Below are positions 1,909-60,285 of a stretch of DNA of 64,000 bases, piece after piece. Position numbers and translations under genes: made by a program. The number at the start of each line of letters is the position of its first letter. Position 1 is the stretch's first letter. The stretch comes from Apricaphanius iberus (lineage: Eukaryota; Chordata; Actinopteri; Cyprinodontiformes; Aphaniidae). Under the pieces are notes generated by a model. That model was not told the origin of the DNA. It did no database searches and saw only the letters and a list, made by a program, of their open reading frames with translations. The DNA is taken from positions 233,941 through 297,940 of the forward strand of contig JAPXFQ010000204.1 in NCBI GenBank assembly GCA_028564705.1, given 5' to 3'.

Positions 1909-2285
1909 GGGACTGGGCCTTGTATTGATGGCGTCTTGTGGCGCAAGGGATTTTGGGATGGCACATAGCTCCTAAGTTACCCAGTTAGTTAGCATCAGAG
2001 GTCCCTATGCTAAAGTGGCTATGATAGTTAGCATACAGGCCACGTTCCCTAACTCCTTCCTAACTGGAAGCCCAATTCGGATGCATCTTATCATGGCGGA
2101 CGCTGACGCACATCCGGTTTGGCGTAAGACCTCTTACCAACTTAGTGGTTTCGGCTGCAGCATTGAGAAACACCCACAAAAAGGCATGGTTTGTGGTTGT
2201 ATATTCGAGGCGTTGGCGGAAGCGTAAGGAACTCGTCATCGTTTGGAAATTTAAAAATCAAAGAAAAGTTTGAGTAAAACAATTA

Positions 2286-7337: not shown

Positions 7338-7453
7338 AATTTTTTTTTCATTTAAAAAAAAAACAACATTTTTACTCACTTTGACTCACACTCCTGCACA
7401 GTAGGTGGCGGTCATGCACCTTTAATTGGATCCCACCCGCCATTTAAACAAAA

Positions 7454-7524
7454 AGAAGAAGAAGAAGAAGAAGAAGAAGAAGAAGAAGAAGAAGAAGAAG
7501 AAGAAGAAGAAGAAGAAGAAGAAA
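7454..7524 (+). repeat. (GAA)n tail of the LINE
   Basis: About 23 uninterrupted GAA triplets directly follow the LINE 3' UTR. Such simple-repeat tails are typical of I-group LINEs. It produces spurious polylysine and polyleucine reading frames. Being only 131 bp from the TYW3 start codon, it may be length-polymorphic close to the promoter. Confidence 0.9.
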
Positions 7525-7655
7525 ACACCCACACTTGTGTTTATACATGTCTATTATGCTTCGTGGAGGACTGTAGGGTGCAGTGTGGGGGTTGGGACAG
7601 GGGAAGAAGAAGACAGTTTGGGTGTGTGAGCAGCTGAACCGATTCAAGAGCAGCT
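7525..7655 (+). promoter_or_regulatory. TYW3: Putative TYW3 5' UTR and proximal promoter
   Basis: This short interval between the LINE tail and the TYW3 ATG must hold the end of the TYW3 5' UTR. No TATA box is evident. Bases 7559-7601 resemble 488-530 on the far side of the LINE. Either the LINE landed inside the promoter region or the promoter contains LINE-derived sequence. The transcription start is not visible. Confidence 0.35.
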
Positions 7656-7823
7656 ATGGAGAGGACGTTCAGTCGATGGAAGACGCAGAATCTAAACAGG
7701 CTGGATCAGAGTAAGAAAGGCAGCGTGGATGAGGACATTGAACATGTGGTGTCTTTCCTCAACAGCTGTGAACAGTTCTTCACCACCAGCTCATGTTCCG
7801 GGAGGATCATCCTCATCGATGGG
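7656..7823 (+). CDS. TYW3: TYW3 exon 1 (initiation exon)
   Basis: The exon encodes residues 1-56, from [10 protein letters not shown] to IILIDG, including the conserved KGSVDED and SSCSGR motifs. The ATG at 7656 (GCTATGG) is the only in-frame start that gives the expected family length. It ends in phase 0 before GTTAGA, a weak but usable donor. Reading past the donor loses family similarity and meets a stop at 7896-7898. Confidence 0.9.
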
Positions 7824-24100: not shown

Positions 24101-27100
24101 CTCTCCACTGTCGCTATATGCTTACTCAGTATGACTGATTGCTGAGAGATTGCTGTGGTTGGAGTCTGCATCAGCGGGATACAACCTCACATCAATCACT
24201 CAACACAATAAGAGAGAAGATAAAACTTTATTATCAATTTACATAGAAAATTGATGCCTTACCATATCCACAATTAGGGCATGGGGATGTGGCCTAGAAA
24301 CAAAATCTCAGATTTTTTTATTTATTTATTTTTTTTTTTGGATTTGTACAATTTTTTTCCAATTCCTCCCCCTACTTATTAAGAAAAGCAATAAGAAAAA
24401 TGGCGGACAAATTGTGCAAAGTATTCGGCTACAGTTTGCTGTTTTTTAGCTAAGGTTTTTTGGTCTATGTGGTTTTGTTCGTCTTGGAGAGATTTGCAGA
24501 GGCTGGTTGCCTCTGTTTCAGGTGTTGGAATAGGTTTGTTGTGCTGCTGCTCTCCAACTGAGAGTGTGTGTGGCTCATTTTGAAACATAAAATGTGCCAA
24601 TGAAAACTCTGTACTGTTGCCAACTGTTGGGTCTGACCCATGAATGTTGAAGCTGGGACGGTCTGATTGTTAAGATCAGACAAAATTCCTTTTCCCACTC
24701 GGCTGACGGGCCGAACATCTCGCTTTCCCAACTTTTATTCCAAAACAGGGAGCTCCCTCTCTTTTCGAAAGAAGTAAGAGCGTTCCGTGTTTATCTTTAT
24801 CTTTTGTGATATGGGTGGAGACAGTTAAGAAAGTTTTCTTTATAACTGTATGCATGCATGATTATGTAAAGTGAGTTTCTTTCCTTGTGCGCTCTGTGAT
24901 TTTCCTGTGCTGAGTTACTAATACGGGTACACTGTGGGGTTTGTACTAGTTGATTGTCAGTTTCCTGTCTTTATTAGTGAGCAAAATTGTTAGTCTGTAG
25001 AAGTCTTGGTTCCTCTCTGTTAGTTTGATAGTGTTTGGTGTCATAGACATTCGGTTTAGCACCTGTGGAGTGCCTGTCACAAACGCGCAGCACGCAAAGG
25101 ACATTTTAATCCCTTTTTCCTCCATATTTGCCAATCAGAGTTTTATTCTCACTGATAGGAATCACGAGGTTTCTTTGTTAGAAAGGAACCACAGGCCTCT
25201 TGCTTCAAGTTAAACAATAAGTCATAAAACGGGATCATAAAACATTCCCCCTGTTCTTTATTTATTTTTTATTTTTCTCTTTTACGTGTCCTGTCTAGCA
25301 GTTTGCCACTCAGAATTGGTGTCTGAGTACCAAGTAAAAGCCCAACAGATTTACTTTCCCAAGCAGAGTATTACATCTTTGCTGTAACACTCCACTTGAT
25401 GTATATGTATTAAATAATCTTTATTAGTAATTACTGAGGGTTCAATTTCCTGAAGTCATGGACACAAAACCGAAAAAAGAAGGAAGAAAGGAAGAAGGTG
25501 AAGAAAAGAAACCGCACCAGCAGAGGCGCGAACTGACGACACAAGACAGGGAGGCAAACAAAGAACACAAGAAAACATTCCAGTCCTCCACCTCTGCCGG
25601 ATGGCAGAGAAGCGGTAAAACAAAACAAACAAAAACAACGAACTGAACAGAACCACACCAATAGTTCAGATCCAGTAAAAAAATTAAGAATTACACATTC
25701 ACTACACACAAGCATGGATTAATAAACACAATACTAATGTTTCTGTTAAGCTCCTGGTAAAAGCTAACTAATGACAATAACCTCAACTCAAGATATGTCC
25801 GTCCACACCAATGTCCCCACACCTATGTGTGTGTGCGAGCATGCAGGTCTGAATAAGGTTTCCCCATGCAAGTGATTGATAGCTGGTGTAAGGAACCGTC
25901 AATCCGTCCTACAGGAATCGACACAGACATGAAGGAGGCAGGAGACGCATGCATCCAGAGTCCCACAGAGCGCAGGAGCCGCAGGCGGACCAGCGCAGGG
26001 CCGATCACCCACCAAGAGAGGAACAGATGGAAGCCCCAGGGGAACACCAATCAGCCGCAATGCTGGGGCCCCGAGAGATCGCAGGGACGAGCCCACGGGC
26101 TCCGCCGGAAACCGGCTACGCCAGGGCGGGCCCGGAACAGGACCCGGAGGCCAGGGGATCAGGGGCACCCCGTTCCCCAGCAGGGCCCCGAGCAGGGACC
26201 CGCCGAGAGGGGTTCCCTGCCGCCGCCGCCGGGCAGGAGGTGCCAGCAGCCGATCGACGGACAATACACGCCGCCGCCACCCCGGACCAATACCCACCGC
26301 CAACAACCCGCCCCCCACACACACACCCACACGCCAGGGAGCCACAGTAAAGCCACAGCGGATTTACGCCCTCCCCAGGCCGCGCCCAGCCAGCATCTGG
26401 ACATCCAGATCTACCAGCTCCCGGGTCCAGATCCTGCCCCATGCAGAGGTCCATATCCCATTTTAAAATAGGAAGGGCTATTGATTCATCTATTCTATTT
26501 AATGGTTTGTATATTTTAGATAGCAGTTTGGGAGGGTTAAGATTAAGAAAGTCTAAAACTTTTCCTGGAATTTGTAAATCAACTGTATTGAGCCTAAATT
26601 TATTTTTTATTAATTGATTTAATTTGTTGATATTCTAAGAATTTATTCTTGTTAATTCCGTATTGTGTAACCAATGTATTAAATGGGATAAAGTCTGTTC
26701 CATCAAACATATGCTCCAGGTATTCAATTCCTTTACAACTCCAGTTTGGAAAGTTGATCATGCATTTTTTTTGTAAGATATCCGGGTTATTCCAGATGGG
26801 TGTACGCCTGCATGGGACTAGTAAGGTCTCTGTCCTTTTAAGAAATTCCCACCAAGCTGTCAGAGAGGAGCTGATACTAATACTTTTAAAACATTCATTT
26901 TGTTTTATATTTGAGCTAATAAATGATAGATCTGAAAGTTTTATCTTATTGCATAGTGTCTGTTCAACATCTACCCAGCACTCATCAATATAACTGTGTT
27001 TTACCCATCTTGATGTGTATTGGAGCCTGTTGGCTAAGAAATAATGACAAAACTTTGGTAGGTCTAGACCTCCTTTATCTTTGGAAAGATAAGCCCCCAC

Positions 27101-30100
27101 GTATCAGCTTAAAAACACTGCAGAAGTCCAAACAAATTTAGAGACAGAAGAGTCCAGAGATCTAAACCAATCAGGTGATGGTTTGCTTGGGATCATTGAG
27201 AATAAATAATTGATTCTAGGCAAAACCATCATTTTTATTGTAGCTACCCTTCCAATAAGTGATATTGGAAGGGATTTCCATCTTGCCAGATCATCTTCCA
27301 CTTTTTTTAAAAGTGGGACGTAGTTTAGCTTTGATAAGTCTGCCAGTCTTGGTGAGATGTGGATACCTTGATATGTAATATTTCCCGACCGGAGTTGCAC
27401 AGCAACGGGACCCTGGAAAGAACAGTTGATTGGAAGGACTGTAGATTTTAACCAATTTATGGAATAGTCTGAACCTCTTGAATAAGATTTTATCAACTCA
27501 ATTACCTGAGAGAAGGAAGTTTGTGAATGCTGTAGAAAGAGTAGTACATCATCTGCATTCAGACTAATTTTATGTTCTATTTTTCCCCCTGTTCTTATCC
27601 GACGAGCTGCGCGTTCGCGTCATACACCGCCTCCTCGCGTACGACGTCAGTAGGAGGCGCCCTGTGACGTGCCTAAGTGACGTCATCGCTGGTCACCATA
27701 TTGCTCAGGTCCCGGTAGTCGTCTTATCAACCGTTTGGTATAAATAGTATTTTTATGTGTTATTTTAGTTATGTTTTTAGAATCTATTTGTTTAATTGAA
27801 TTTAATCTCTGGTTTCTTTTATTCTGAGTGTGTGTGAATTATTGCAAAGAATTCATGTCCTTCAGATAGGATCGTTCTGGTGTGATCACTAATAATTAAT
27901 CATTATAAGTCTGATTATTTGTTGATATTCCCCCTTTGATTACATATAATATCTTGTTTCTAGCCCAGAGGCTAGTGGTGCGCCGATTAAATGATTTAAA
28001 GAATAATTAACTACTAATTTACAATTATTAGTTAATATTCTTAACATAACCAGATAGATCATAACAATTATTTAATTGATAATTCCCCTACACCTACCTT
28101 AAAACTTGTATGCAGGAAATGACAAAATTAAACATGAAAATTTCATCACTTGGTGTCCTCAGTCTCCAAACGTGTTTTAAGTGTTTTCAAATGAAATGGA
28201 AACATTACAAAGTGGTAAATGCTTTGCTGTTCTAACTTCCTTTGAAATGTGTTGCAAGAACCTAAATTTGAATACATAATTATCTTGAGTTATAAAAATC
28301 ACGTGAAGCACATTACATAATTTGAATTTGTGTTGTTTTCTGTGAAATACAGATTAAATATAATTTAAAGTGCTGTTTAAAGTTTGTTGTTTTTAATTCA
28401 ACAGAAATGAAACCTGATGATCTTGGAGCATGTTTAATTCAAAAATATCCAGGTTTCTTTTGGTGCAATATTAATTGTGTAAATAAGTAACCAGCAAGGC
28501 AGACATATTTGAACATTGTTTTCATAATATTTAGCTTTTATTTAAAATGTTTTCATCTTTCTTTATGTTATGAGATTTTTGTGTTGTATTATTTTGGAAA
28601 AATAATTTAACTTTTTTAAATGTATTTTGCAAAATAAATGTTATTTAAATGACATTCTACCCCTTTTTGAAATTGTTCTGCTGCAATGTATCTGGGAAAT
28701 TGAGAATACTCATAATCAGTCATTTTAACATGTATGAAGAAAAAGAAAGAATATACCACAATGCATATCGTTATCGCATATGCTTTAGATTATATTGCAA
28801 TATAAACTTGAGGCTGTATCGCCCAGCTCTAGTTTTTAGTTTGATTTTAATTAAACTAACTGTCCCAACTTTTTCTAGTTTTGGGTTGAAGAATATTTAA
28901 CTGCTTTTTCTGTGGTTGTCTAAAATCAATCAGTCAGTGTTATATCATTGTTCCAGGTATAAAGCTGCCCAGGACAACATGCCTATGATGAGAGAGGTGA
29001 AAGAAAACCCGGTAGGATGTTGGGTACAAAAAAGGGGCAAACTCCGCCCGCAGAAAGTGAAGCCAACCCGGAAATGTCAAAAACTGCAGTTCAGCCCTCA
29101 TCCGCTGGGGGCTGGATCCATAAAGGAGCTATTTCCCATTGACTCCCATGTTAAAAAGGCCAACTTCACAGCAAAAATAAACATGTTTACAGCCTGATTC
29201 AAAAAACCATTTTAGTTTAGATAGTTTAGGTTTACCATCACGACAACTCTGAGGGGGGTGAATTTTTTTCTTACTTCTCCGTTTATTTGTAATTTAATCT
29301 TGAAATGATGAATAATTAGGGGCGTGTTCCTTTTGATTGACAGGTCCGTCTAGGCTAACGCTGATGGCTAATGGTGGCTAACTGTAGCTAATAGCTTGCT
29401 CCGTAGTCTGCTCTCCCCCTCTGCTTGCGGGCAAGCTTTTAACAGCCTGGGACTAATGTAAAGACTTCAGTCATTTGGTGTTTCTGAACTCCACTATCAG
29501 TTGCCTCTGCAGTTTTTATTTGGTTTTGGATGTTAATCTGCAATTATTGCTGTGGTGTTGATTACAGTAACAGACTGTCAAAGAAGTTTATGCTTTGGGG
29601 GGAGGCTTCATACCGGTTGAAGCTTCACCAGCTGTGGGGGGGTTCTGTCAGGTGGCCGAACGGAATGCTGTTCTGGTCGGAGCTTCTATTTATTTCTACA
29701 CGCGAGTTGGAGCAGGCGATCGGTCGGGTAACAGCAGAGCAGCGAAGTTGGCAGGACCGATAAACCGCAGCATCCAGAGCGGGAGTCGGCTAGATCAGGC
29801 TGGAAGACTACAGAGCTGGACTCTAGACAGACTGGATGTTTGCTGGTTAGATCAGTACTAGTGTGAGGAACACAACGTGAGGCATGAATTAATTGATGTT
29901 TGAGATGTGAGGTGAGTCAAAACCTTTTTTTTTTGAGAGGATCTGAGTTTTCATGATGACTTTGTGACTGCTTTTTGCTGGATGTGTTGTTAAAGGACAA
30001 CTAAACACCAAATCAACTTTTTGTAGCTTATAAACTGCAGAAATATGCTTCTTATCGTGTTCTCTACATGTCCTGGTCCCTTTTTTGACAGACTAGTGCA

Positions 30101-33100
30101 AATTAGATAACATCTCTCTTTTGAGCCTAAAACCGTCTGTCTGGCGCCATCTGTGCATTTTCGGTTGCACTACATTTGAATTTCATTCCTGTACTCCCCA
30201 TTTGCTCAGGAGTTTGTGTGACGTGATTTGGTGGTCTGTGACGTCCGTCGCTCTGCCGCCGGAGTATAAAAGCAGTCAAGGCTCGCACGGCTCACACACG
30301 CCCAGTAGCGAGTTGGAATAGTGAGCGAGCGTTTTACATCGATTTTCAGGTTAGCAAGTTATCATTAGCATAGTATTTAGTTAGTTCTTTAGCGTACCGT
30401 TTCTAGAGTAGTTACTTTTCTTTTTACTACGGCTCTGTATAAGAGGGGGGAACTCGGCCACACCTCCGTAGCGAGGCGCTATGAACTGCTTGCAGCACAA
30501 AACCTGAGTGCTCCATTATGCAGATGGTTACCCCTAATTACTGACATTTTATCATTATCTATGATGAACGTAATGATAAAGGATAACCAACATCAGTGAA
30601 TTGAAAATAAAATCTAGGCTAAGAGTTTGTTTTTAATGGAATAGTTGTGATGGTGTATCTTTGTTTGTTTTTTTGCACATTCTGGAATTATTTTCTCGTC
30701 ATGCTTAGATACTTTATACCGGGCATCTCTCTGCAACACATTTTCTGCTGCAGACAATAACGTACAGTGGCTGCAGGTGCGCCTGTCGAGGCAGAATCAC
30801 ACGAAATTACTCGAGCTAATCGATATTTAGCATTAGATTTGGTAAGAACAATGTACCACTCCGAGACGGCGCTCATTCTGTGCTGCGATGCCGCTACAGG
30901 TTCGGCACCTGCTGCTGAGAACGAGACATCGGCCCGAAATGATATGACTCAGAGCCACTCAGTTACTCCACAGAACTGGAGAAAAACTCAACCTAGAAAT
31001 TATTTCCCTTTGAGGCAAAGGAGCCCGCGTTGCTGTGGCTCTCTCCGCCTTTCTGGCCGTCTGTGACTCTGCGCTGCTGCCTGCCAGTCAGTCACAGCCC
31101 AGACCACGCCCAGCCAGTATTCCCCCCCGCCTTTTTCCTGGTTCGCCAGGCAACGCCTTCTTTTGAGCCGTTTTTCAAAAATAAATGTGGGCGGGGTTAT
31201 ACTCTGGTAGGTTGTTGAGTTTTACTCTTTAAGATGAGCCCACCGATGGTAATGGAAATAACACCATATTAAGCAGTATTGACCCGACCCATTTGGGTCT
31301 TATTACATGGATATGTTTTCTCTACTCGAGATGTTTCTGGGTCTAAAGTGATCGTTTGTTGAAAAACGGCATAAAATTCTCTTAACCGCTGTCTTCTGGC
31401 TGAAACCGGCTGCAGCCTACGTTAGCTTCAGTTAGCTCCCGATTAGCTTCTTACTAGCTTGTAGCTATGTTGGCTCGGAGCATCAACCCTCCGCCCCCAG
31501 CCTCACAGCGCCACTCTCAGCTCCACCTCTTTGCCCATTTTTGGAGTTTCTGAGGGTGACGAGGCGAATGACGCAGACAAGATGGCGGCGGTGGGAACCG
31601 CCCAGTTGACTTCATTTTTGCTCTTCAGAAACCTATGGGTGACGTCAACGAAGGTTTTTCTATTATATATGCAGTCTATGGGTACAGACAATTAATAAAA
31701 ATATTCTTAAATAACACAGACTATGTTAACAGCATAATATTTACTTTAAAAGAGAGCAGTACGAATTATGCATAATGTAAATGGTAAATGGTAAATGGCC
31801 TGCATTTGTATAGCGCTTTACTCAGTCCCTACAGACCCCACAACGTAAACTATAGAGAACACACAGTTTATTAAATCTAAGCTACTAAAACTAGAACATA
31901 TGGTGAAATTACAAACACTGTTAATTTTGTTAAGGTCAAAAAATTCTTTGCTTCCTATTAAAACTCTATTTGCATTGAGTGCAGAAAGTGAGTATAATAA
32001 AAGTAAGTTTTATTTTAAGCATAAGTTTGCTCGGACTACACAAAGGCAAATGTGTCCTTTTAGTTATAGGTATACGAATATGGACTATGCTACATGGTGA
32101 CCTTAAGGGTTGTACAAATATTAATCAATGTAAAACACAATATAAGAATGAAATGATAAATAAATATGAAAAAGACCAAATTAACAGGAGTTAAGTACAG
32201 AAATAATTATCCATCTTAAATGTCCTATCTCTGAGGTATTACTTATTTTCATTGTAAGGATTTCTTTGTTTTATTTTAAATTTCGGTTGTAAGCGCCTAC
32301 TTGTACTATAATTATTTGTTGTTGGATAGGAGGCAGCTGTAAATAAGAATTTATTCTTCTTCCTGCTCCTTTACAGGCATGGTTGTAGTGTTATATTATA
32401 TATAGATAGGAAGAGGTAGAGTAGCTAGGTAGAGATAGATTAATGTAAGCCAGGTAAAGATCCGGAGCCGGTCGCGGCTTACCGCTGCGGAAGAAATGTG
32501 CCCCACAGGGGCCAGCCAGCACCGGAGAGAGGTCCCTCAAGGGGATCCTCCCGCACAGTGCGGCCGCCCATTACCTGCCGGGTTGAATCCCCCGGGCAGA
32601 CTGTGCGGACCCCACCCGTTTATCTCTTAAACGTTTCTCGCCCTCTTCAACTCTGTCCTCTCAGTTCTGTCTATTTTTCCTTAAGATAGTTGTCGACTAT
32701 CGGTCTCGTGCCGGTATTTAGCCTTAGATGGAGTTTACCACCCACTTTGGGCTGCATTCTCAAACAACCCGACTCCGAGAAGACCCCGGCATGACGGGGG
32801 CCGTTACCGGCCCTACACCGTCCACGGGTCAGGAGGACTCAGACAGAGTGTTGGTAGCCAGGTCTCCTAGTAGCTAGGAGACAGGTTAATGTTAGTAGCT
32901 ATGCTGCTTTAGGCTAGGCTGTTGGAGGACATTATTAGGGTCTGTTCCTACTTTCTCTCCTACTTCTCCCCAACTGCATGATGTGCTGTCAATTCAAGCA
33001 CTAACCTGTTTTCTATATAGTAGGTGCTCCGGATTAGCCCTGCTTGACGACCCTGACTAAGATGGCATTGCAGTGACGGAAAATTCTCCACGTCCTGCAA

Positions 33101-36100
33101 CAAACTTGTGCATCAGTTCTATTGCTCTTTCTGTGTCTCTGTTATGTATTCTCCAAGCCACAGACGGTCGCGGCAGATAACCGCTTGTGCTGAGCCTGGT
33201 TCTGCCGGAGGTTTCTTCCTGTTAAAAGGGAGTTTTTCCTTCCCACTGTCGCTGCATGCTTGCTCAGTATGAGGGATTGCTGAGAATTCCACGACGCAAT
33301 CTTCTGTGGTTCTGTAATTTCTACACTAAACATTGTATTGTAATAACTCTTTTTGTAAAGTGCCTTGAGATGACATCTGTTGTGAAATGGCGCTATATAA
33401 ATAAACTGAATTGAAAAATTGAATTGAAATTGAAATTATATTAAACGAAGGAAGATTATTGTATACGAAATTACTATTGTAGACTACCCTGTGTGAAACA
33501 AAATGAAATGAAATAATTATTTCTTTGTTTGTTTGTATTAACCACCAACCAGGGCTTCTTCCACCATTCTCTTCTAAATTGTTCTGGATGACATAGAAAA
33601 CATACTAGCAATAACTCCAGTGGTTATGTCCAACACTACTAAAGTCTTGAGTGCTGGGCTTGGGATAATTTCAAAAGTATCACAAACGACTCAAGATGGT
33701 ATCCTCTGATAAATGTTTCCTCTCAGTTTGATCTGCTAGAGTAATCGGAGCTGGATGAAGTTCAACAATGATACTTGACCTAGCATCTTAGGTCTAGTTT
33801 TTACTTTTCCATCTACAGAGGTCCAGAGATATGCAGCACCATTAATCGTTGTTTATACTTCTCCGTCAGTACTGGTACAGAGACATGCAGCACCATTATT
33901 TGTTGACACAAGGGCTTTCCATTACCTACGCAAGCACAGACCGAGTAGAGCTTAATTTTCTAATTATCCAATGGAAAATGCATGACTGTGATTGGTCAGC
34001 CCAACATCAGTCCCAGATCATTTCACCAGAACGGTGCTCTACACTTCAAAAAGAATAACCTCACCATTAAAACTAAAAAAAATGTATGTTCCATTTTCCC
34101 ATCCAAAATATTTGACTTCACAAAATCTAAATCGAGTCAACTAATATGAGCTGATTCTTTTACACTGATGTAAAGCATATTACTGTACTTGACCGACGTT
34201 TAATTCTTTGCCCTGATCCAAACACATTTCTTCACATACAACCGTATTTTGGTTATTGAACCAAGCTATTATTTCAAAATTGACAAATCTAATGTATTTA
34301 GATTGAACCAAATTAACGTTAATTTGCGTTGACACTAGTTAATTCATTTATATATAAACAAACTATATTTTCTAAATTTAATTTTACTTCAAAAATAATT
34401 TGTATTATATAATAAACAAGATGATTGGCCAAAAGATTACACCAAATGTATTTATTAATCTTAGCACAAGAATAAGAACAGGCTAGCAACTACACTGAAT
34501 GATACAAATGTGTCTCATACATCACATGACCTCAAACAATTTTAGAACAAAAATAGCAGAGCCTAACCAACTTGGGGCATTTATTTTACCTTCCTTACCC
34601 CAACAATAGACTGACACAGCAACCTCATTCCCCTGAATGACCTCCTCATTCATGGTGCCAACCACAACATTACATTTCAAATCAAGACCAAAATCAAGAG
34701 ATGATCAGAATGTTGTAAAAGGACAAATCAGAAAGACAATAAGAATGCTGTAAACACCCAAAACAGAAGAAAACAGCCGAAAACATGGTTACCCACAATG
34801 CACCCTGCACACTACTGGTCCCACATGAATTAATTTGACTCAAACTAAAGATGTTACCAGCACACAATGTGTTCGTGAATGGGTGAGTAACTAAATGTAG
34901 TGTGAAGCGCTTTGGGGTTCGTAGGGACTAAGTACAACGCTATACAATTACAGGCCATTTACAACTTACCCACTGATTAAAATCAATCAGTTTAAAAGTG
35001 TCCTTTTGAAATAAATAAATCACTGGGAAAAATGTTATGATTAATTAAATCTTACTTTGTGAAAAATATGTTTTGGAATAAAAACTGATGCAATCAAATA
35101 AAAATGGCAAAAAAAATCTAATCCGTTTCATTTCATTGTCACATTAAATAAATTAGTCTATTTTTTTCATGTAGCCATTTATTTTTTACAAGGTTTATTT
35201 AACTTTGAGCATTTTTGCAGTTGTGTACATATCAGTCAGCTTAAGTCTATGCAGAATGTTCACTAGGCACTTTGCTTTTATGGCAGAAAGTGGGTGTGTA
35301 GGAGGCAAGATATAATCCAAAATATCCTGAGCACATTTCTAGAGTGAATTACAGTATTGTGAGAGTCTAACTTATGAAGTGGAAATTGGGTGCTGCTGTG
35401 CATACTCAAAGCTTTATAGATCAGAAAATTTCTCTGTGCAAATATTTTTTTTGTATTTGCTTGATTACAGTTTTAGATGTTTAAGATGGCGCCGAGGATG
35501 GCAGCCATGGTGCTTTCGTGCGCTCTGTTTTGTTTGTTCTTGTGCGTTAACTGTTTGTCTGCGTGCTCTTATACCCGCATGGAGCTTCTGGACATTAGAC
35601 CTACCACCCCTACGGACTTATTACCAGTTTTTTTAGCATCAGCTGCGGACCTGGTCCATTTTTTGACCAAAAGAGGGAAACGGCGCCGTGGAAAGCGAGC
35701 GGGTTCACTCGTCCGCCTGCGCAGACGGGGCGCGCGCACGCCTTTACCTGGCATCTTTCTCTCAAACGTCCGCTCACTTCCCAACAAGATGGACGAACTA
35801 GCGCTGCTGATGAGAAGTAACAAGGACTTTTCCTCGTCTTGTGTTTTGTGCTTCACGGAGACGTGGCTAAGCGCGAGTGTCCCGGACAGCGCGCTTCACC
35901 TGGAAGGCTTCCATCTCCTCCGCGCGGATCGCAACGCGAAGCTCTCCAACAAAACAAAAGGCGGTGGTGTTTGCTTCTACATCAACAGCAGCTGGTGCAC
36001 GGATTCGACTGTGATCTCCCAACACTGCGCTCCTTCTCTGGAATATCTTTTCATTCACTGTAAGCCTTTTTATTCACCGCGTGAGATCGCTTCATTCATT

Positions 36101-39100
36101 CTGGTGGCTGCCTACATTCCGCCGAGCGCGGACGTGCACGAGGCTCAGCGCACGCTTGCAGACCAGATATTACATGCGGAGCGGTCTTTTCCGGACTCTC
36201 TTGTTATCGTGCTTGGTGACTTTAACAAGGGAAACCTGAGCCAGGAATTACCAAAGTATAGACAGTTCATTAAATGCCCGACCAGAGAGGAGAACACGTT
36301 GGATCACTGCTACACTAAAGTCAGCAGAGCGTATCATGCTGTGCCGCGCGCTGCCCTCGGACTATCAGATCACGTGATGGTGCACCTAATTCCCTCATAC
36401 CGACAGAGACTGAAATTGGCCAAGCCTGCGGTGATAACAAGGAAATACACCTTTGAAGCTGTGGAGGAGCTGCGCTCATGTTGGGAGACGACAGACTGGG
36501 GAGCGTTTGGAGCAGCCACGGACAATCTGTACGAGTATACGGACACTGTGACCTCATACATTCAGTTCAATGAGACGCGCATCATCCCAACGCGCACCAG
36601 GATTGGTTATAACAATGACAAGCCCTGGTTCACACCCAAGCTCCGGCGCCTACGTGAGGAGAAGGAAGTAGCGCGGCGGAGCGAGAAGAGCAAAATCTGT
36701 GTACTCCAACCGTATACAGGAACACTTTAGCTCCAATGACTCTGCAGCCGTGTGGAGGGGGTTGAGGGCTCTCACAAACTACAAGCCCAAAGCCCCCCAG
36801 GCCCTGAACGACCGGACTCTCGCCCAGGGCCTGAATACACACTACTGCCGCTTTGAACAGCCGTCTGCTCCTCACACCTCTGCTCCTCCCCCCACCATCA
36901 ACCCAACCATCAACGACCCCAGCACTTCATCAAAGGACTCCTCAGATCCCCCCTCCTCCCCCCCCTGCCCTCTCCATCCAGGAGGAGGATGTGCGCCGAC
37001 AGTTTTTGAGGCTGAACAGGAGGAAGGCCCCCGGGCCGGACGGTGTCTCCCCCTCCACCCTGAGACACTGCGCGGATCAGTTGGCCCCCGTGTTCACGGA
37101 CATTTTCATCACCTCCCTGGCGCTCTGTCGCGTGCCGTCCTGCTTCAAAACCTCCACCATCGTCCCTGTCCCCAAAAAGCCACGGATCACAGGACTTAAT
37201 GACTACAGGCCGGTGGCGCTGACGTCTGTGGTCATGAAGTCATTTGAGCGCTTGGTTCTGCCCCACCTCAAGGACATCACCGCCCCCCTCCTGGACCCAC
37301 TGCAGTTCGCCTACAGAGCCAACAGGTCAGTGGATGATGCAGTGAACCTGGCCCTCCATTTCATCCTGGAGCATCTGGACTCCCCAGGAACCTACGCCAG
37401 GATCCTGTTTGTGGACTTCAGCTCTGCCTTCAACACCATCCTCCCTGGACTGCTACGAGACAAGCTCTACCAGCTCAGCGTGCCCGACTCCCTCTGCAGG
37501 TGGATCACTGACTTTCTGTTGGACCGGAGACAGCACGTTCGGTTGGGGAAGATTGTCTCGGACAATCGGACTACAAACACTGGGAATCCTCAGGGCTGTG
37601 TACTCTCCCCCTGGCTCTTCTCGCTGTATACAAACTGCTGCACCTCCAGTCACCAGTCCGTAAAGCTGATCAAGTTTGCGGACGACACCACCCTCATCGG
37701 ACTTATCTCAGACGGTGATGAGTCCGCCTACAGGAGAGAGGTGGACCGGCTGGCTTCCTGGTGCAATCACAACAACCTGGAGCTGAACGCCCAGAAGACA
37801 GAGGAGATGATCATGGACTTCAGAAAGTCACAGCCCCACCGTATCCCCTCACCCTGATGGACTCTCCCACCCCCATCTCCATCGTGGACTCCTTCCGTTT
37901 CCTGGGCACCACCATCACCCAGGACCTCAAGTGGGAGCCAACCATCAGCTCCCTCATCAAGAAGGCCCAGCAGAGGATGTACTTCCTGCGGCAGCTGAGG
38001 AAACTAAAAGTGCCGACCGAGATGCTGGTGCAGTTCTACACGGCCATCATCGAGTCCATCCTCACCTCCTCCATCACCGTGTGGTTCCCCGGCGCCGCAG
38101 ACCGGGACAAACACCGACTGCAGCGCATCGTGCGTGCTGCTGAGAAGGTGATTGGCTGCAGGCTCCCATCCCTCCGGACCTGTTCTCCTCCAGGACCCGG
38201 AGGCGTGTGGGTCGGATCACAGCTGACTCTTCTCACCCTGGACACCGACTATTCTCCCTCCTCCCCTCAGGCAGGAGGCTACGGTCCATCCAGACCCACA
38301 CCTCCCGCCACCTGAACAGTTTCTTCCCCTCCGCCATCAGACTCATGAACAATAACAAGACCCGATAGTTCAGTTAAAGACCCATGTAAGATAGAACCAT
38401 CTGCACTACGTAACTTTATTTTACTGCACTTTGTGGTCTGATCACACTTAGATCTGCTGCTGTCATTCACCTGCACATCTGTGAATGGAACCCTGCTTCT
38501 GTTCTTATGTTAAAAGGATGTTTATCTCTTCATAGTTCTTTTATATTACATACAGATTATAATATTTATAAAGACTTTAGCCTTATGGCTCATTCTTTTT
38601 ATTTTATTTTTTATTTTATTTTATTTTTTTATTTTTTACTTATGTTAAATGTTTTATGTGCACAACTGTACCGGAAAAAATTCCTAGTTTGTGAACTTGT
38701 TCTCAAACAATGGCAATAAAACCGATTCTGATTCTAGTAAGAAAGCTATGCAAAGTTTTAAAGATGACTCCCCTGATCCAAAACAATAAGGTCTGTCCAA
38801 ATCCAAAGTGATATAAACTGGCAATTAGACATTTTCAGCAGTCCTTTCAAAAGCCTTTTCTCCATCTAATGAAACAAAATTACCAGCTTTATTATGGATG
38901 CTGTAATAGTCTGTTAGAATAACGAATCCTGTAATATTTATAAATTATTTTTAATAAATCCAATGTAATCAATATGTATAGTTTGAGGAGCCATCTTTTG
39001 TGGCTTTATCTTAATTTATTGACGATGATTGTAAGATCTGTATTTATATGTGATATTTTGGGGAATTGTGGCTTTATCTAACACTTCTCCCTGATGAGCA

Positions 39101-48592: not shown

Positions 48593-51544
48593 ATGAATCC
48601 TATAAAAATTCTAACATGGAATATTCGTGGCTCTAGCTCCAGAGATAAAACGATTAAGATTTTCAACCATCTTACAAGATTGAAGGCAGATGTCGTCTTA
48701 CTACAGGAGACTCATAAATCAAGTTCAACAGCTAATGATTTAAAAACACCATAGTATCCTAATATATTTTCTTCATGCTATAACTCTAGACAACGAGGAG
48801 TAGCAATATTAATAAATAAAAATACTAATTTTAAAGTAATAGACACAGCTACAGATCCAGAATGTAGATTTATAATATTAAAACTATTTATAAATAACCA
48901 AAAGTTATGTATAGTTAGTATATATGGTCCAAACCTTGACGACCCCTCATTCTTTCATACTTTCTTCTCGGTTTTGGCTAATCACATGGATTGCTCACTT
49001 GTTCTTGGGGGAGATTTCAACTTTGGACTAAATGGAGAAATACACAGGCTCAGTACAGCAGGGACTCAGCGCAGATGGCAATCCATAGATATAGTTAAAC
49101 AGTACATGAGCGATTATGGACTCTGCGATGCATGGCGATCGCTTCATCCCAACGACAGAAAATACACTTTTTACTCAAACATACATCATTCTTATTCTAG
49201 ATTGGACTATTTGTTAGTCAGCAGCTCACTGTTGAATTACATTTCAGACACTGAGATACATCCTATAGTGATCAGCGATCACGCTCCTGTTTCTTCAAAT
49301 TTAGCAAATAAAATTGCAACCCTTCAATATAAAAATTGGAGATTTAATATATCATTACTTAAGGATAAAGAATTTATTAAATATATTGAAAAAGAATGGG
49401 CTTCATACATGGAATTTAATGATCTCTCTGGTATATCGCCATCCACTCTATGGGAAGCAGGGAAAGCTGTGATTAGAGGTAAAATAATTTCATTCTCATC
49501 AAATAAAAAGAGAACAGAAAATAAACATGTTCAGGAATTAGAAGAAACTATTAAATCATTAGAAGCTTCCATGGATAAAGAGAGCATAAGTAAAATAAGG
49601 AAAGCAAAATTAGAATTAAATGAAATTATTAATAAAAGGACGCAGTTTTTAATCCAAAGACTTAGAATAGAAAACTTTGAACATAGTAATAAATCAGGTA
49701 GCTTCTTAGCTAATCAGTTAAAAATAAATAAAGAAAAAACAACTATTTCTGCAATCAAAGACAAAATTGGGAATATAATATATGATCCTGAAAAAATAAA
49801 CAACACTTTCAAAGAATTTCATGAGACTTTATACACACCAGAGATAAACCCTTCAAATAATGAAATTGTACAATTTCTGGATAAAATAACTCTTCCTAAA
49901 CTTTCAGACAGTCAAGCAAAGGCCCTGGATTCACCCCTAACAGTGTCTGAACTCCAGGAGGCCCTCCAATCCATGCCTAATAATAAAGCTCCAGGTCCAG
50001 ATTGATTTCCAGTAGAGTTCTATAAAGAATTGTGGAATATTCTGGCACCAACATTTTACAAAATGTTGCAGGAAACAAAGGAAAATGGTCGAATACCACC
50101 AAACATGGATTCTGCCTACATCAATCTTCTATTAAAACCAGGAAAAGACCCTATGTCTCCTACCAGTTATCGTCCCATTTCTCTTATCAATGTGGATCTG
50201 AAAATAATTTGCAAAGCTCTTGCAAGAAGGATAGAGAAAATAACACATCTAATAATCCACCCTGATCAAACAGGTTTTATAAAAAGTAGGCTCTCTTCAA
50301 CAAATTCACGTAGATTAATAGATTTAATAGATTATTCCCACTGTAAAAACGTCCAAACCAATATATTATCTTTAGATGCAGAAAAAGCATTTGATAGAGT
50401 TAACTGGAAATTTTTATTTGCAGCCTTAAATAAATTCGGATTCAGTAAATCTTTTGTAAACTGGTTAAAAATATTATACAGCTCACCAACAGCATGTATT
50501 AGGACCAATAATCAAACATCATCAAGGTTCTTTCTTCAGAGAGGTACCAGGCAGGGATGTCCACTTTCTCCCTCCCTCTTTGCTATTTTTATTAAACCAT
50601 TAGCAGCAGCAATCAGGCAAAATAATAATGTTAAAGGTATACAATGCAACAAAATAAAACATAAAATCAGTTTATACGCAGATGATGTACTACTTTTTCT
50701 ACAGCATTCACAAACTTCCTTGTATCAGGTAATTGAGTTAATAAAATCTTACTCAAGAGTTTCAGACTATTCCATAAATTGGTTAAAATCTACAGTCCTC
50801 CCTATCAACTGTTCTTACCAGAGTCCTGTTGCTTTACAGCTCCGGTCGGGAAATATTACATATCTAGGTATCCATATCTCACCAAGACTGGCAGACTTAT
50901 CTAAGCTAAACTACGCCCCACTTTTAAAAAAAGTGGAAGATGATCTGGCAAGATGGAAATCCCTTCCAATATCACTTATTGGAAGGGTAGCTACAATAAA
51001 AATGATGGTTTTGCCTAGAATCAATTATTTATTCTCAATGATCCCAAGCAAACCATCACCTGATTGGTTTAGATCTCTGGACTCTTCTGTTTCTAAATTT
51101 ATTTGGAAAGATAAACCCCCACGTATCAGCTTAAAAACACTGCAGAAGTCCAAAGATAAAGGAGGTCTAGACCTACCAAACTTTCGTCATTATTTCTTAG
51201 CCAACAGGCTCCAATACACATCAAGATGGGTAAAACACAGCTATATCGATGAATGCTGGGTAGATGTTGAACAGACACTATGCAATAAGATAAAATTTTC
51301 AGATCTACCATTCATTAGCTCAAATATAAAACAAAATGAATGTTTTAAAAGTATTAGTATCAGCTCCTCTCTGACAGCTTGGTGGGAATTTCTTAAAAGG
51401 ACAGAGACCTTACTAGTCCCATGCAGGCGTACACCCATCTGGAATAACCCGGATATCTTACAAAAAAAATGCATGATCAACTTTCCAAACAGAAGTTGTA
51501 AAGGAATTGAATACCTGGAGCATATGTTTGATGGAACAGACTGA
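48593..51544 (+). pseudogene. L1 ORF2 with two in-frame stops and C-terminal loss
   Basis: ORF2 starts MNPIKILTWNIRGSSSRDKT, an APE endonuclease N-terminus, with VVLLQETH, VLGGDFNFGL (about 49000) and ISDHAPVS (about 49273). Reverse transcriptase motifs follow: NKAPGPD near 49985, SYRPISLINVDLKI near 50165, LSLDAEKAFDRVNWKFLFAA near 50370, RQGCPLSPSLFAIFI near 50545 and LYADDVLLF near 50673. The reading frame is unbroken in phase for nearly 3 kb except TAG at 48752-48754 and TGA at 50003-50005, the latter in APGPDGF where GGA is expected. It ends at TGA 51542-51544, at a junction with 3' UTR sequence. Confidence 0.8.
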
Positions 51545-53600
51545 CGGAACCCGTCACGGGGGGCTGTCGTGGGCCGGTGGTCGCTGCTGCCTTTTCCATC
51601 TTCCTGGGCTGGTTCTTTTCGCTGGCTCCCCGATAGCCCCTTGTCACGCCTGCGCGTCGGGGTGTACCCACTGTTTAAATACATCTAGACACTGAGGGCC
51701 CGGGGAGGGAGATGGGGGTACCTGGCAGTATTCCCATGTCCCACCCCTCTGTTTTAAGTGCACATTAGAACAACACGCAACAATGCCACAATTGAGCAGG
51801 GGGAGAGAGGCTGAGGGTCTTTCCACACCCCTGTTCGTTGGACCATCAGGGGTTGGAGCCCGGGTGGATTATCAGGCCGTCTGGTCGGGGACCTGGGCTG
51901 GTGAGCTACTCCTGCCGAAGTGGGGGCCTTGGCGGTCTGCTTGTCCCCGTCCTGGTGGGCAAGGGGTCCGTCTCCCGGGTGCAGGGGCAGGGTGCTCTAT
52001 CGGGGCGTCTGTCCCTGGGCCTGGGAGTATAGAGTATGTATGGGGTGTATGAATGAGTGTACAGCGTCCTTTTTTCGTGTGTCCTGTATATGTAAGAATG
52101 TGTGCGCATGAGAGGGAGGGTATGTATGAGTGTCTCTGTCTGTCTATGTCTACTTGTCAGGTTGGGTGTTTGGCTGCCCTCTGGCCTGGTGCATCTTCTT
52201 CCCCTCCGTCACTCCCCGTCGGTGATGGATGCTCCTGCCCGCTGGTCGATGATGGCTCTCGATGCCTGGGGCCGGGGTCCCGGTTGCGGCCCGGCTCGGT
52301 CCTGGTGCATGCCTGGCTGGTCCTGGGTGGGCCGGTGTGTCGGGCGGCCGCTGTTTCGGGCCGACATCCTCCTTGGATTGACTGGGGCACCTCTTATGGG
52401 GGTGCCGGGGTTGTAAAGTAGGTTGGTGCCGTCCGGTGGATCGGTGGGGACCGTGCCCGGCGCCCAAGCTCCTGCCAGTTCCATGAGTTCTACTGCCTGG
52501 TCGGTTCATCTGGGGGGGCTGTCCAGTATTGGCTGGGCCCCAGATCTTGGCGCTCTGCATGGGGCGGGATCTGGACCCGGGAGCTGGTAGATCTGGATGT
52601 CCAGATGCTGGCTGGGCGCGGCCTGGGGAGGGCGTACATCCGCTGTGGCTTTTACTGTGGCTCCCTGGTGTGTGGGGGGGGCCGGGTTGTTGGCGGTGGG
52701 TATTGGTCCGGGGTGGCAGTGGCGTGTATTGTCCATTGGTCGGCTGCTGGCACCTCCTGCCTGGCGGCGGCGGTAGGGGACCCCTCTCGGCGGGTCCCTG
52801 GTCGGGGCCCTGCTGGGGGGCTGGGTGCCCCTGATCCCCGTGGCCTCCGCGTCCTGTTCCGGCCCGCCCTGGCGTAGCCGGGTTCCGGCGGAGCCCGTGG
52901 GCTCGTCCCTGCGATCTCTCGGGCCCCAGCGTTGCGGCTGCTTGGTGTTCCCCTGGGGCTTCCATCTGTTCCTCTCTTGGTGGGTGATCGGCCCTGCGAT
53001 GGTCCACCTGTGGCTCCTGCGCTCTATGGGACTCTGGATGCATGCGTCTCCTGCCTCCTTCATGTCTGTGTCGATTCCTGTAGGACGGATTGACGGTTCC
53101 TTACACCAGCGATCAATCAGTTGCATGGGGAAACCTTATTCAGACCTGCATGCTCGCACACACACATAGGTGTGGGGACATTGGTGTGGACGGACATAAC
53201 TTGAGCTGAGGTTATCGTCATTAGTTAGCTGTTACCAGGAGCTTACCAGAAACATTATTATTGTGTTCATTAATCCATGCTTGTGTGTAGTGAATGTGTA
53301 ATTCTTAGTTTTTATTACTGGATCTGAACTATTGGTGTGGTTCTGTTTAGTTTGTTGTTTTTGTATGTTTTGTTTTACTGCTTCTCTGCCATCCGGCAGA
53401 GGCGGAGGACTGGGATGTTTTCTTATGTTCTTTGTTTGCCTCCCTGTCTTGTGTTGTCAGTTCGCGCCTCTACTGGTCCGGTTTCTTTTCTTCACCTACA
53501 GCAAAGCTGTAATACTCTGCTTGGGAAAGTAAATCTGTTGGGTTTGTACTTGGTACTCAGACACGACTTCTGAGTGGCAAACTGCTAGACAGGACACGCT
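51545..53600 (+). other. GC-rich 3' UTR of the L1
   Basis: This non-coding GC-rich region contains short CT/GT repeats near 52060-52150. It is shared in part with the antisense L1 at 25259-26460 (for example GGACCCGGGAGCTGGTAGAT then CTGGATGTCC). Long reading frames on both strands here come from low stop-codon density and are not supported as genes. Confidence 0.65.
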
Positions 53601-54206: not shown

Positions 54207-54500
54207 GACTGAGGACATGTCGCAGCACAAGGCTGCTCTATGTCCAGGTGGAAGATGGTAGACGAGACGCCGAACAGCGGTACACCAACTCCCGGGAAGA
54301 CTGAGGATGTGCAGCCACACAGAGCTCCGGGCAGAAGATGGGAGACAAGCCACCGAATGGAGGCACTCGAACTCTGGGGAAGAATGAGGACGTGCAGCCA
54401 CACGGAGCTCCAGGCAGAAGATGGGAGAGAAGCCGCCGAACGGAGGTACTCCAACTCCAGGGAAGACTGAGGACGTGCAGCCACATGGAGCTCCGGGAAG
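54207..54500 (+). repeat. Minisatellite with about 83-bp units
   Basis: Units start at 54207, 54299, 54382 and 54465 with GA(C/A)TGAGGA, giving lengths 92, 83, 83 and a partial. Each contains GCAGCCACAC-GAGCTCC and AGAAGATGG-AGA-AAGCC. The array is open in several frames, producing repeat-derived proteins that I do not accept as genes. Confidence 0.85.
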
Positions 54501-54544
54501 GAGAGCGGAGATCAGAGCATTTGGAGGAAGATATCAGAGTGCCA

Positions 54545-55680: not shown

Positions 55681-55800
55681 ATTTCTGAGGAGGTAATGCG
55701 CTAAGTAGTTTGCAATCCCGTTAAACACTAAAAGAACATTGCACCTGTGCCGAAACCATCAAAGGAGGCTGCCACAACTTCTTTCAAAAGTCGATTCTAA

Positions 55801-55895
55801 AGCCTGCCGCACACCAGAGCTATCTGCTGAGCAAACGGCCTCGAATGACTGTTAGCTCTGTTAGCTCAGCAGATAGCTCTCGTGTGCGGCAGGCT
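55801..55895. mobile_element. 95-bp hairpin MITE with TAA target duplication
   Basis: Two 32-bp arms (55801-55832 and 55864-55895) are inverted copies with a single mismatch, separated by 31 bp. TAA flanks both sides (55798-55800, 55896-55898). The end AGCCTGCCGC shares AGCCT with the larger Harbinger MITE at 20820-21478. RNA from either strand would fold into a long stem of pre-miRNA size. Confidence 0.85.
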
Positions 55896-56610
55896 TAAGA
55901 CCAACACCGATAGAAGCTTATCATACCTCAAATTTACTCTGCTACTATTCCCTGAGTTTTCTTACTGTGTCAAATCAGAATCACTACTTGGCTTATTTCC
56001 GTTCTTTAGAATTTATTTTGGGATAAAAAAGTGAGCATAATATAATTTACACAACTTAGACTTTCTCATTAAAAAGATGTCAACAAGAGTCGCATAGTAG
56101 CTCTGCCAGTGGCGGCTTGTCAATAGGGGGCGCTCGGGCGCCGCCCCCATCAAAATTTCATAAAGAATTAATACACACAGTAAACATAAATTATGTAATA
56201 AAAAGTCATTACCACGTCTGTTCAGTGTTCACTCATACAATGGGTGTTACTTTTATTTTTGTAAGCCTTTCCATTTCATATCGGATTTATTTTGGGTTGT
56301 TTTATTAGTTTTTAATATCAAGGGGCGCCGGCCAAATGAGTGTGTATGTATCTTCCAAAACTTGCGGCTACCATGTGACTTCATGCTGGTCTCTAATTGG
56401 TCACTTAAAGATTCTCCTCAGGGCGCAGAGAGCTGCGCCCCTGACGAATCAGCGCGCTAGGCTAATTTTTCTTGCGATCTGATTGATTCATGATACCTGG
56501 CTGTCAGTCAAAGTCACTGGCAACGCGCTTGTCACTCCAACATAGACACTCCCCGCGCGCGGGTTTACGGAGGCGAAGAAGCGAGATAGACGTACAACAA
56601 AACAGCAGAC

Positions 56611-59099
56611 ATGGCCAAAGAAAATTCGGTTGTTTCTTTACAACTCAATCCTTTCACGAGACGTTCGCTGGAGGAAAAAAAAAGGATTAAGGAGCTTGGA
56701 CCGGAGAAACCCGGTTTACAGATCCAGCAGCAGGCAAGTGACTGTGGGCGGAGTTACACCCGAGGCTTCTCCGGTCTGTGTTATGCTAAACACAGTTGGC
56801 TCGCTGGATGCGAAGTAAGCAATGCTCTTTTTTGCTTTCCCTGCTTGCTTTTTCAAAGTGTTGGCACGGAAGTGTTGTGGACAACAACAGGGGTCAGAGA
56901 CCTGAAACATCTCTCTGAAAAATGCAAACGTCATGAAAGTAGCCGTTGCCACATTGACAACAGTATGAAGCGACAGTTTTTTGGCCGCGTTAGCATTGCT
57001 GAACAATTAGACGAGGGCTACAGAGTTGGCATTAGAAGGCACAACGAAGAGGTGACAAAAAATCGTCATGTTCTGTCCAGGATAATCGACTGTGTGAAAT
57101 TCTGTGGGGCATTTGAGTTGGCTTTACATGGCCACGATGAGAGTGAGAGCTCTGTGAACCCTGGGATATTTCGTGGATTGGTCGATTTTGTTGCCTCTCT
57201 GGATGGAGCTTTGAAAGAGCACCTTGAGACTGCCACTGTTTTCAAGGGTACTTCCAAAACTGTCCAAAATGAACTCTTGGACTGTATGTTGTCTGTTGCA
57301 AGAGAGCAAATCATTGAAGAAGCTCAAAAGAGTGTTTTTGTATCAATCCAGGCAGATGAGACAACAGATATTTCAACACAGTCCCAACTTGTGCTTGTAC
57401 TACGCTACATTGATGACAAGCACAGTGTTCAGGAAAGATTTTTTGAGTTCATTCCTTTGCAGTCAGCTACATCTGAGTCCATTGCTGCTGCATTATCAGA
57501 GCGTCTTGCTGCCATCATTCCTGAGGATCAGAAAAGCAAGCTAATCTGCCAGGCGTATGATGGAGCCAGTGTGATGAGGGGTGCCAATGCAGGTGTTCAG
57601 AGGAAGATCAAAGATGTGTACCCAAATGCCCATTATATCCACTGCTATGCACACCAACTCAACCTGATCATGCAACAGGCCACCTCTCACATTTCCAAGG
57701 TGAGAATTTTTTTTTCTGACCTGGGTGGATTTGCGAGCTTTTTTTCCAGGTCACCCAAGCGTACGGCTGTCCTTGATAAAACGGTGGCCCGTAGACTGCC
57801 AACATCCAGCAATGTCCGATGGAACTTTCACAGCCGAGCCATCAACACTGTGTTTGAGCACAGAGATGATCTCATTCAATGTTTTGAGAACATACGAGAT
57901 TCGGGTGACTTTGACTCCAACACCATCAGAGAGGCAGGAGCCATGGCCATGCTGCTGGAACATCAGGACTTTAAGTTCTTCCTGGAACTTTTTCACCACA
58001 TCATGCCACATGTGGACCTCCTTTATGCCAAGCTCCAGAAGAAGAACATAGATGCAGTCCACATCAAAGGGAGCATCCAGCAGTTCGAAAAGGACATACA
58101 AAACATCAGGTAATATGTCAATAATATCATCATCACATTTTTAATTGTTATCTCTTTTCAACTTTTTGATCATTATTATGACTTCTTCTTCACAGAAATT
58201 CTCTCCATTCCATGAGTGAGCAAAGCAGTGGCTCTCTGACAGCAAAACGGCGTCGGGTACTCAGTTCTGAGGATCGTCAGAGTGCTGCAGAAGAGGTGAG
58301 TTTATGTTGTAGAAATCTGTCATAGTTTATGAAATAGCTATTTAAATACCATTTTAAATATGTCATGTTGCAGAGATGATTTAGTTAATTTCCTAATCAC
58401 AATTAACCTAAATGTTTAATGAAAATATTAAAAATCATATCACAATTGCAGTTGTCAATAATAGCAAGATGTTTTTTCAAAACCATGCAGCAACAGAGGG
58501 TAACAATGTCAACAAAAGTAAATTAATTTAATATCTATTTTTTTCTCTCTGTTTTTGTATTCTCTCTGTAGATCTGCAACACCATTCTGAGACACACCAG
58601 GGAGCGCTTCAACTTCACCGACCATCTTGTCTGTGCCACCTTGTTGCAGGGGGACAGGTTTGAGGAACATCACAGGTCATTTCCCAAAGAGGTGCTGCAA
58701 AGCACTTTGAAGGCCTACCCAATGCTGAACGGAAGCAAGCTGAAGACAGAGCTCAGTCTCATCTACAGCAAAGCAGAGTTCAGAACCTGTTGTGGTGCAG
58801 TGGACCTGTTCCAGCTGTTCATGGAGAACAATCTTCAAGATGTTTTTTCAGAAACGGTCACTCTTTTAAAGATCCTTATTACCACACCTATGACCACAGC
58901 TGAAGCAGAGAGGTGTTTCTCAACCTTAAAATGGGTGAAAACTTTTCTGAGAAACACCATGACCCAGGAAAGGCTGAATGCCCTGGCCATGCTCTCCATG
59001 GAAAAGAGACTAATCTGTCAAATGACCAATTTCAATCAGAGAGTCATTGAAAGATTTGCTGGCCTGAAAGAGAGGAGAGCAAAATTTTTGTTCAAGTAG
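56611..59099 (+). CDS. hAT transposase (TTF zinc finger, DUF4371/ZMYM1-like), three exons
   Basis: Exons 56611-58109, 58196-58295 and 58572-59099 join in frame (phase 2, then 0) to 708 residues. hAT transposases bind the element ends and excise and reinsert it, leaving 8-bp duplications. Visible parts are a TTF-type zinc finger with CFPCLLF at residues 75-81 and histidines near 108 and 114; the first catalytic aspartate in IQADETTDIS (D249); the second in AYDGASVM (D317); CYAHQLNLIM (345-354); and the C-terminal dimerisation region with TTAEAERCFSTLKWVKT (641-656), whose E is the third catalytic residue. The start at 56611 (GACATGG) is the first good ATG. No damage is seen. Confidence 0.88.
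58110..58195 (+). other. Intron 1 of the hAT transposase gene
   Basis: The donor GTAATA and acceptor TTCACAG enclose 86 bp with an in-frame TAA right after the donor, so splicing is required for the full protein. The flanking codon AG|A gives arginine. Confidence 0.75.
58296..58571 (+). other. Intron 2 of the hAT transposase gene
   Basis: The donor GTGAGT and acceptor TCTCTCTGTAG enclose 276 bp. The joined reading frame stays open and restores the hAT family order. Confidence 0.75.
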
Positions 59100-59590
59100 T
59101 TTGTTGTTGTAAATAGTTTGTTATTGTGAATAGTTTGTTGTTGTGAATAGTTTGTTGTTGCCAGTAGTTTAATTTTGTAAATAGTTTTATTGTTGTACAT
59201 AGTTTATTGTTGCTAGTAGTTTAATGTTATAAATAGTTTATTGTTATAAATAGTTTATTGTTGCTAGTAGTTTAATGTTATAAATAGTTTATTGTTGCTA
59301 GTAGTTTAATGTTATAGTTTGTTATAAATAGTTTATTGTTGCTAGTAGTTTAATGTTATAGTTTGTTATAAATAGTTTATTGTTGCTAGTAGTTTAATGT
59401 TATAAATAGTTTGTTATAGTTTATTGTTGTAAATAGTTTATTGTTGCTAGTAGTTTAATGTTATAAATAGTTTAATGTTATAAATAGTTTTATTGTAAAT
59501 AGTTTATTGTTGCTAGTAGTTTAATGTTATAGTTTATTGTTGTAAATAGTTTGTTGTAAATAGTTTATTGTTGTAAATAGTTTATCCATC
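59100..59590 (+). repeat. Degenerate tandem repeat in the hAT 3' part
   Basis: Units such as TAGTTTATTGTTGCTAGTAG and TTTAATGTTATAAATAGTTT recur many times in irregular order after the transposase stop codon. The array ends before the right subterminal region. Confidence 0.8.
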
Positions 59591-60285
59591 ACTAAATCTG
59601 TTAACCTTTCACCTGTCTGCCTCCTTCCATTCCTCCCTGCCTTTGGGTCCACATCGACACACCACCGTGACAGCAAGTAGTTTATTGTTGCCAGTGCGCC
59701 CCCCCCAAAATTTTTATCACCAGCCGCCACTGAGCTCTGCATATGATTTTTTTCCTCCAATTGAAATCACTATTTCTCTAAGCCGATACATTCTTTAGGT
59801 TAATATATACTCCAGTATAACAACACTAAAGGTTTATAACAAACAACACAAAAAATGTGATTTATAATTTTTATTTAAAAAGTAAATAAAATAATATTAA
59901 CTCTTTTAACACTCAAAGCTCTTCGATAGCTTCAGCAGTTTCCTGATATATCCACAGTATTACTGTCAGGAGCGGGGTATCTTCGTCTGATGTCCAAAAC
60001 AACACAGGTAGGCAAAACTAGACGTTAGCCTTTGCCAGGTCTCTCGCCTTGCAGGACCCACTCCACAAAGTGAGCTGTGGGCTGTTAGACGATATTGTCT
60101 ACAAAACAGTAAGCTCAACATTAGCAATGCAAACTATTTCCACCTACAGTATGCTAGAATATATGTTAATGTAACAACAATAGCTCAGCTGACTTCATGG
60201 GAAGAACGCTATGATAATGCCGGCTGTACAAACTCAGTAAATGACGTCTTAGTAACAAATAAAGAACAAACAAAATACTAACTTT

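Follow-up and report, generated by a model that had tools for sequence, protein, structure and literature searches.

The DNA analysed here, a 64-kb stretch (64,000 nucleotides, the window) of the genome of the fish Apricaphanius iberus (contig JAPXFQ010000204.1, positions 233,941 to 297,940), carries at 56107..59732 an element with the ends and coding capacity of a hAT transposon. It is very probably a full-length, structurally autonomous hAT transposon in a fish genome, nearest to the Tip100 group. The element is of a known kind and does not represent a new kind of system.

Boundaries of the element

The whole element, its terminal inverted repeats (TIRs) and the target-site duplication (TSD) are placed as follows.

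56107..59732, plus strand: whole hAT transposon, 3626 bp
56099..56106, no strand: TSD, left copy, AGCTCTGC
59733..59740, no strand: TSD, right copy, AGCTCTGC
56107..56117, plus strand: left TIR, CAGTGGCGGCT
59722..59732, minus strand: right TIR

The preliminary description of this DNA had claimed an exact 8-bp TSD and readable terminal repeats, and both are borne out: the two copies of AGCTCTGC are identical and directly outside the TIRs, and the TIR CAGTGGCGGCT is perfect over 11 bp, beyond which similarity is gapped and partial. AGCTCTGC occurs seven times in the window when both strands and the two TSD copies are counted, so the evidential weight lies in its adjacency to the TIRs; with the ends given, the eight outer bases would match by chance with a probability of 4^-8. 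The exact TIR 11-mer is present in the window at the two element ends only. TIR-like 11-mers with two or fewer mismatches number nine, including the two ends, against 7.4 expected by chance, and blastn found no non-autonomous copies within the window beyond the element itself and its own minisatellite. The target consensus is nTnnnnAn for Ac and nnnTAnnn for Buster; AGCTCTGC matches neither, which for a single site carries little weight. The 8-bp TSD and the perfect 11-bp TIR are those of the hAT superfamily, in which short TIRs are described as ranging from 10-25 bp (PMC3942097).

The boundaries also bear on whether this is instead a domesticated, ZMYM1-like host gene and not a transposon. 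Public records of relatives do carry gene-style names ('zinc finger MYM-type protein 1-like') and the intron position is conserved, both of which would suit a host gene. The exact TSD and TIRs bracket the gene directly, and this reading is refuted by the boundaries as seen. Furthermore, P0047, a predicted protein from the goby Knipowitschia caucasica, represents 42 sequences clustered at 90% identity, suggesting many copies, and the family tree is patchy and incongruent. We consider domestication exceedingly improbable.

At 55796-55900, some 200 bp before the element, lies an inverted repeat whose 41-nt arms are 93% complementary and enclose a 23-nt loop; it looks like a small hairpin element.

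The transposase gene and its product

The coding part and the 3′ part of the element, all on the plus strand, comprise the following.

56611..58109, plus strand: transposase exon 1, with DUF4371, D249 and D317, and a TTF-type zinc-finger region (by the names of relatives)
58110..58195, plus strand: intron 1, phase 2; unspliced reading meets an immediate TAA
58196..58295, plus strand: transposase exon 2; P0047 has the same junctions
58296..58571, plus strand: intron 2, GT-AG
58572..59099, plus strand: transposase exon 3 including the stop codon, with E644 and the hAT C-terminal dimerisation region
59097..59585, plus strand: minisatellite inside the 3′ part of the element, unit of about 17 bp, 30.5 copies, 71% matches

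The three-exon frame proposed earlier is open. It runs from the ATG at 56611 to a stop codon ending at 59099 and encodes 708 amino acids (aa) without stop or frameshift; the splice junctions lie where they had been placed (58109/58196 and 58295/58572) and both introns are GT-AG. P0047 spans both proposed junctions, as a gene model and not a transcript. The first unit of the minisatellite takes in the transposase stop codon.

For 20 of 207 relatives the alignment ends at query residues 470-530. Twelve of these 20 finish, without any further residues, at the position aligned to R500, where the intron-1 donor of the window copy supplies an in-frame stop; P0149 ends at 497, P0071 reads 13 residues further, and the other six end elsewhere. 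The R500 endings are consistent with reading of unspliced DNA across a phase-2 donor whose position is conserved. Alignments of 163 of the 207 continue past residue 690, some from contigs of 2-3 kb that may be spliced transcripts or intronless, and the presence of the intron can therefore not be extended to the whole family. Intron-1 retention might be a built-in brake, with the 500-aa product as a repressor; the unspliced frame would retain two of the three catalytic residues and the zinc-finger part at the N-terminus, and would lack E644 and the dimerisation region. A truncated product of the P element acts as a repressor and offers a parallel. Since a TAA or TGA stop results from any GTRA donor read in this phase, constraint on the splice site is enough by itself to explain the conserved position of intron 1, and we regard a brake as highly unlikely.

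Pfam places DUF4371 and the hAT dimerisation region PF05699 (expect value (E) 1.1e-8) on the protein, above cut-off. The homologue search (E cut-off 0.001) passed 645 among 7992 candidates scored; most of the best 120 of these 645 come from fishes and bear the name 'zinc finger MYM-type protein 1-like', alongside proteins from frogs, salamanders, lamprey, lobster and metagenomes, a few being named 'TTF-type domain-containing'. No relatives were confirmed in viral contigs (exon 1; alignment) or prokaryote genomes, as expected for a fish element. The three catalytic acidic residues that had been expected, D249, D317 and E644, are in place by motif. By sequence, no solved structure was found under E 0.001 (the best were 0.024 and 0.27). 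P0001, a lamprey relative that shares 83% identity with the window protein, was modelled with AlphaFold. The model has a predicted local distance difference test score (pLDDT) of 80.4 and a predicted template-modelling score (pTM) of 0.61, and its best match both by Foldseek and by VIA-align is Hermes of Musca (14% identity, root-mean-square deviation 7.8, over an aligned range of 178-685 that has the N-terminal part outside it). Within the model, region 644-657 around the catalytic E has pLDDT under 50. An RNase-H-like fold with D, D and E as in Hermes is predicted, the fold from P0001 and the residues by motif. Hermes has BED fingers (PMC10368747), whereas relatives of the window protein are named TTF-type.

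We propose that the transcript would lose two introns in vivo to give a 708-aa transposase with an RNase-H fold. By analogy with Hermes, the transposase would dimerise and bind the element ends, D249, D317 and E644 would cut, and the element would be pasted into a staggered cut, leaving the 8-bp duplication.

Tip100 of Ipomoea is described with the same 8-bp TSD and 11-bp TIR (PMC3942097, PMC12511174). Its TIR, CAGGGGCGGAG (PMC12511174), equals CAGTGGCGGCT at 8 of 11 positions by eye, which is suggestive only. It is given as 3.8 kb long, against 3.6 kb here, and its transposase as 808 aa from a 2,427-bp open reading frame, whereas three exons encode 708 aa here. Both the TIR and the naming of relatives as TTF-type point to putative membership of the Tip100 group.

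Preservation and age of the copy

Conservation was compared between the window protein and 49 relatives (52 rows). Of 183 columns conserved at 90%, the window protein differs at 4, and of 109 conserved at 97%, at 1; a count below four is seen in 8 of the 52 rows. The stop-free frame bounds neutral divergence at 3.9%, or at 0.9-1.2% if indels are assumed to arise at 10-15% of substitutions; the perfect TSD and TIR alone permit up to 7.6%. Given the conserved frame, few departures and low divergence bounds, the copy is, to judge from its sequence, young or was under selection until recently. The suggestion that the element moved recently holds to the extent that the copy has decayed little, with both ends complete, the TSD exact, the frame open and departures few.

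Comparison with the closest relatives was made residue by residue. P0047 differs from the window protein at 13 of 447 residues; the Stegastes protein P0002 sides with the window at 10 of these and with P0047 at 3, and at one of the three, residue 188, perch and lamprey agree with the window. A second Knipowitschia caucasica record, P0124, differs at 10 of 256 residues, at which Stegastes is like the window at 7 and like P0124 at 2, with 1 undecided.

Several observations weigh against an intact autonomous copy. (i) Among the matches listed there is no near-identical full-length protein. (ii) Downstream of the stop codon the element contains neither AATAAA nor ATTAAA; the only polyadenylation-type signals there are eight TATAAA variants. 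(iii) Of the four departures (L121R, R173H, D536N and R654W), D536N is common to P0047, P0124 and Stegastes, and the other three are absent from Stegastes. Residue 121 is L in 48 of 49 relatives and R in none of 49; residue 173 is R in 45 of 48 and H in two; residue 654 is R in 45 of 49 and W in none of 49.

The Knipowitschia caucasica records bear on point (i). P0047 matches 63% of the query at 97% identity, and its sequence diverges beyond query residue 567. Its residues past that point correspond to none of the reading frames of the window copy, so the idea of a simple frameshift was set aside; a frameshift, a deletion or a gene-model error may each explain this end. P0124 has G instead of E644 and continues into an Ig-like protein, and P0127 (63% identity) belongs to another lineage. 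No record from this species is among the best 120 of 159 matches in the N-terminal search. That none of the three is full-length and near-identical argues weakly against near-identical copies, the lists covering at most 120 matches each and in part consisting mostly of records without a species name.

The copy may be recently dead, that is, full-length and open yet immobile today through missense changes (L121R, R173H, R654W) or silencing, a reading to which we give an even chance. All three changes fall at columns more than 90% conserved, and CpG decay would account for R173H and R654W if these positions were formerly encoded by CGT and CGG. Residue 654 is covered in alignable sequence by no goby copy seen, and the other goby records seen are damaged-looking or odd gene models. 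Set against recent death are the presence of the catalytic triad, departure counts among the lower of the 52 rows, and the short branch of the window copy in the tree (0.0076 vs 0.028 for P0047). As a preserved autonomous copy, the element could supply transposase to whatever non-autonomous copies its genome holds, and it might serve as a transposition tool of vertebrate origin.

Family history and surroundings

The hAT lineage of the window copy spans fishes, frogs and lampreys. In a protein tree of 39 rows (the window and 38 chosen relatives), the window copy pairs with P0047 (100/99) and the pair with Stegastes (100/100); the sister group of these three consists of Perca and two lamprey records (100/97). 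Lamprey P0001 and Perca P0003 are 90% identical over 710 columns and joined at 100/100. A tree constrained to group the percomorph rows to the exclusion of lamprey is worse by 52.7 log units and is rejected by the approximately unbiased (AU) test (p 8.9e-6), as is one that places the window copy with the goby Periophthalmus (36.6 log units, p 0.0022); the groups were named after the tree had been seen, making both p-values optimistic. The AU test does not reject cypriniforms together without frogs (p 0.147), so a frog transfer is non-significant and the tree there suggestive.

The family appears to have passed between fish and lamprey hosts. The alternative is vertical descent in fishes, with the lamprey and frog placements arising from paralogy, contamination or tree error. 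It draws on the non-significant frog-in-cypriniform grouping, on the sampling (proteins only, 38 chosen relatives), since paralogy can be hidden in transposable element families, on the long branch of Periophthalmus (0.55) and on the odd letter make-up of Archocentrus. The lamprey–Perca identity and grouping and the two rejected constraints, post hoc as they are, speak against it, as does the fact that two lamprey records sit on contigs 9.9 and 5.0 Mb long. On balance vertical descent is unlikely.

Transfer of this kind has precedent. Horizontal transfer of DNA transposons is well documented in ray-finned fishes, which take part in 93.7% of at least 975 recorded events (PMC7070016). hAT-6_XT, likened to the window element by description, is of the same superfamily and moved horizontally between turtles, fishes and a frog; its account takes the triad and TIR/TSD as signs of possible activity and has no mention of lamprey (PMC11008031). 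Tc1 transfer is described between lampreys and teleosts, the same pair of host groups with the same patchiness; Tc1 is of another superfamily, with sequence identity of 95-99% against protein identity of 83-90% here (PMC3516227). Lamprey beside perch is likely a hAT case to be added to these Tc1 transfers. No literature joining 'zinc finger MYM-type protein', hAT, transposase and fish was found (Repbase lay outside the scope); by title, no match listed for the TIR 10-mer and none of the papers found on the Knipowitschia caucasica genome concerns transposons.

Every other autonomous-type element in the window had been described as broken. The frames with endonuclease or reverse transcriptase domains at 3762-5315, 35477-37857 and 48755-51544 agree with this, being split into separate open frames; the Pfam scan behind the comparison covered 10 of the 19 open frames of at least 170 aa. 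By eye, 25857-27619 and 50006-53135 hold similar GC-rich frames and similar reverse-transcriptase-side frames, which suggests two copies of one composite of long interspersed nuclear element (LINE) type. Strong G-over-C and A-over-T strand bias marks 2001-8000 (GC skew 0.31-0.53 per 2-kb block), where LINE frames lie at 2706-5315. A eukaryotic large-subunit ribosomal RNA fragment of 473 bp is at 32530-33002 (minus strand), and a tandem repeat (83-bp unit, 3.1 copies) at 54251-54511. Two histone 3′ untranslated region stem-loops above the Rfam cut-off, at 19426-19471 (minus strand) and 20105-20149 (plus strand), are in opposite orientation and perhaps mark a histone gene pair.
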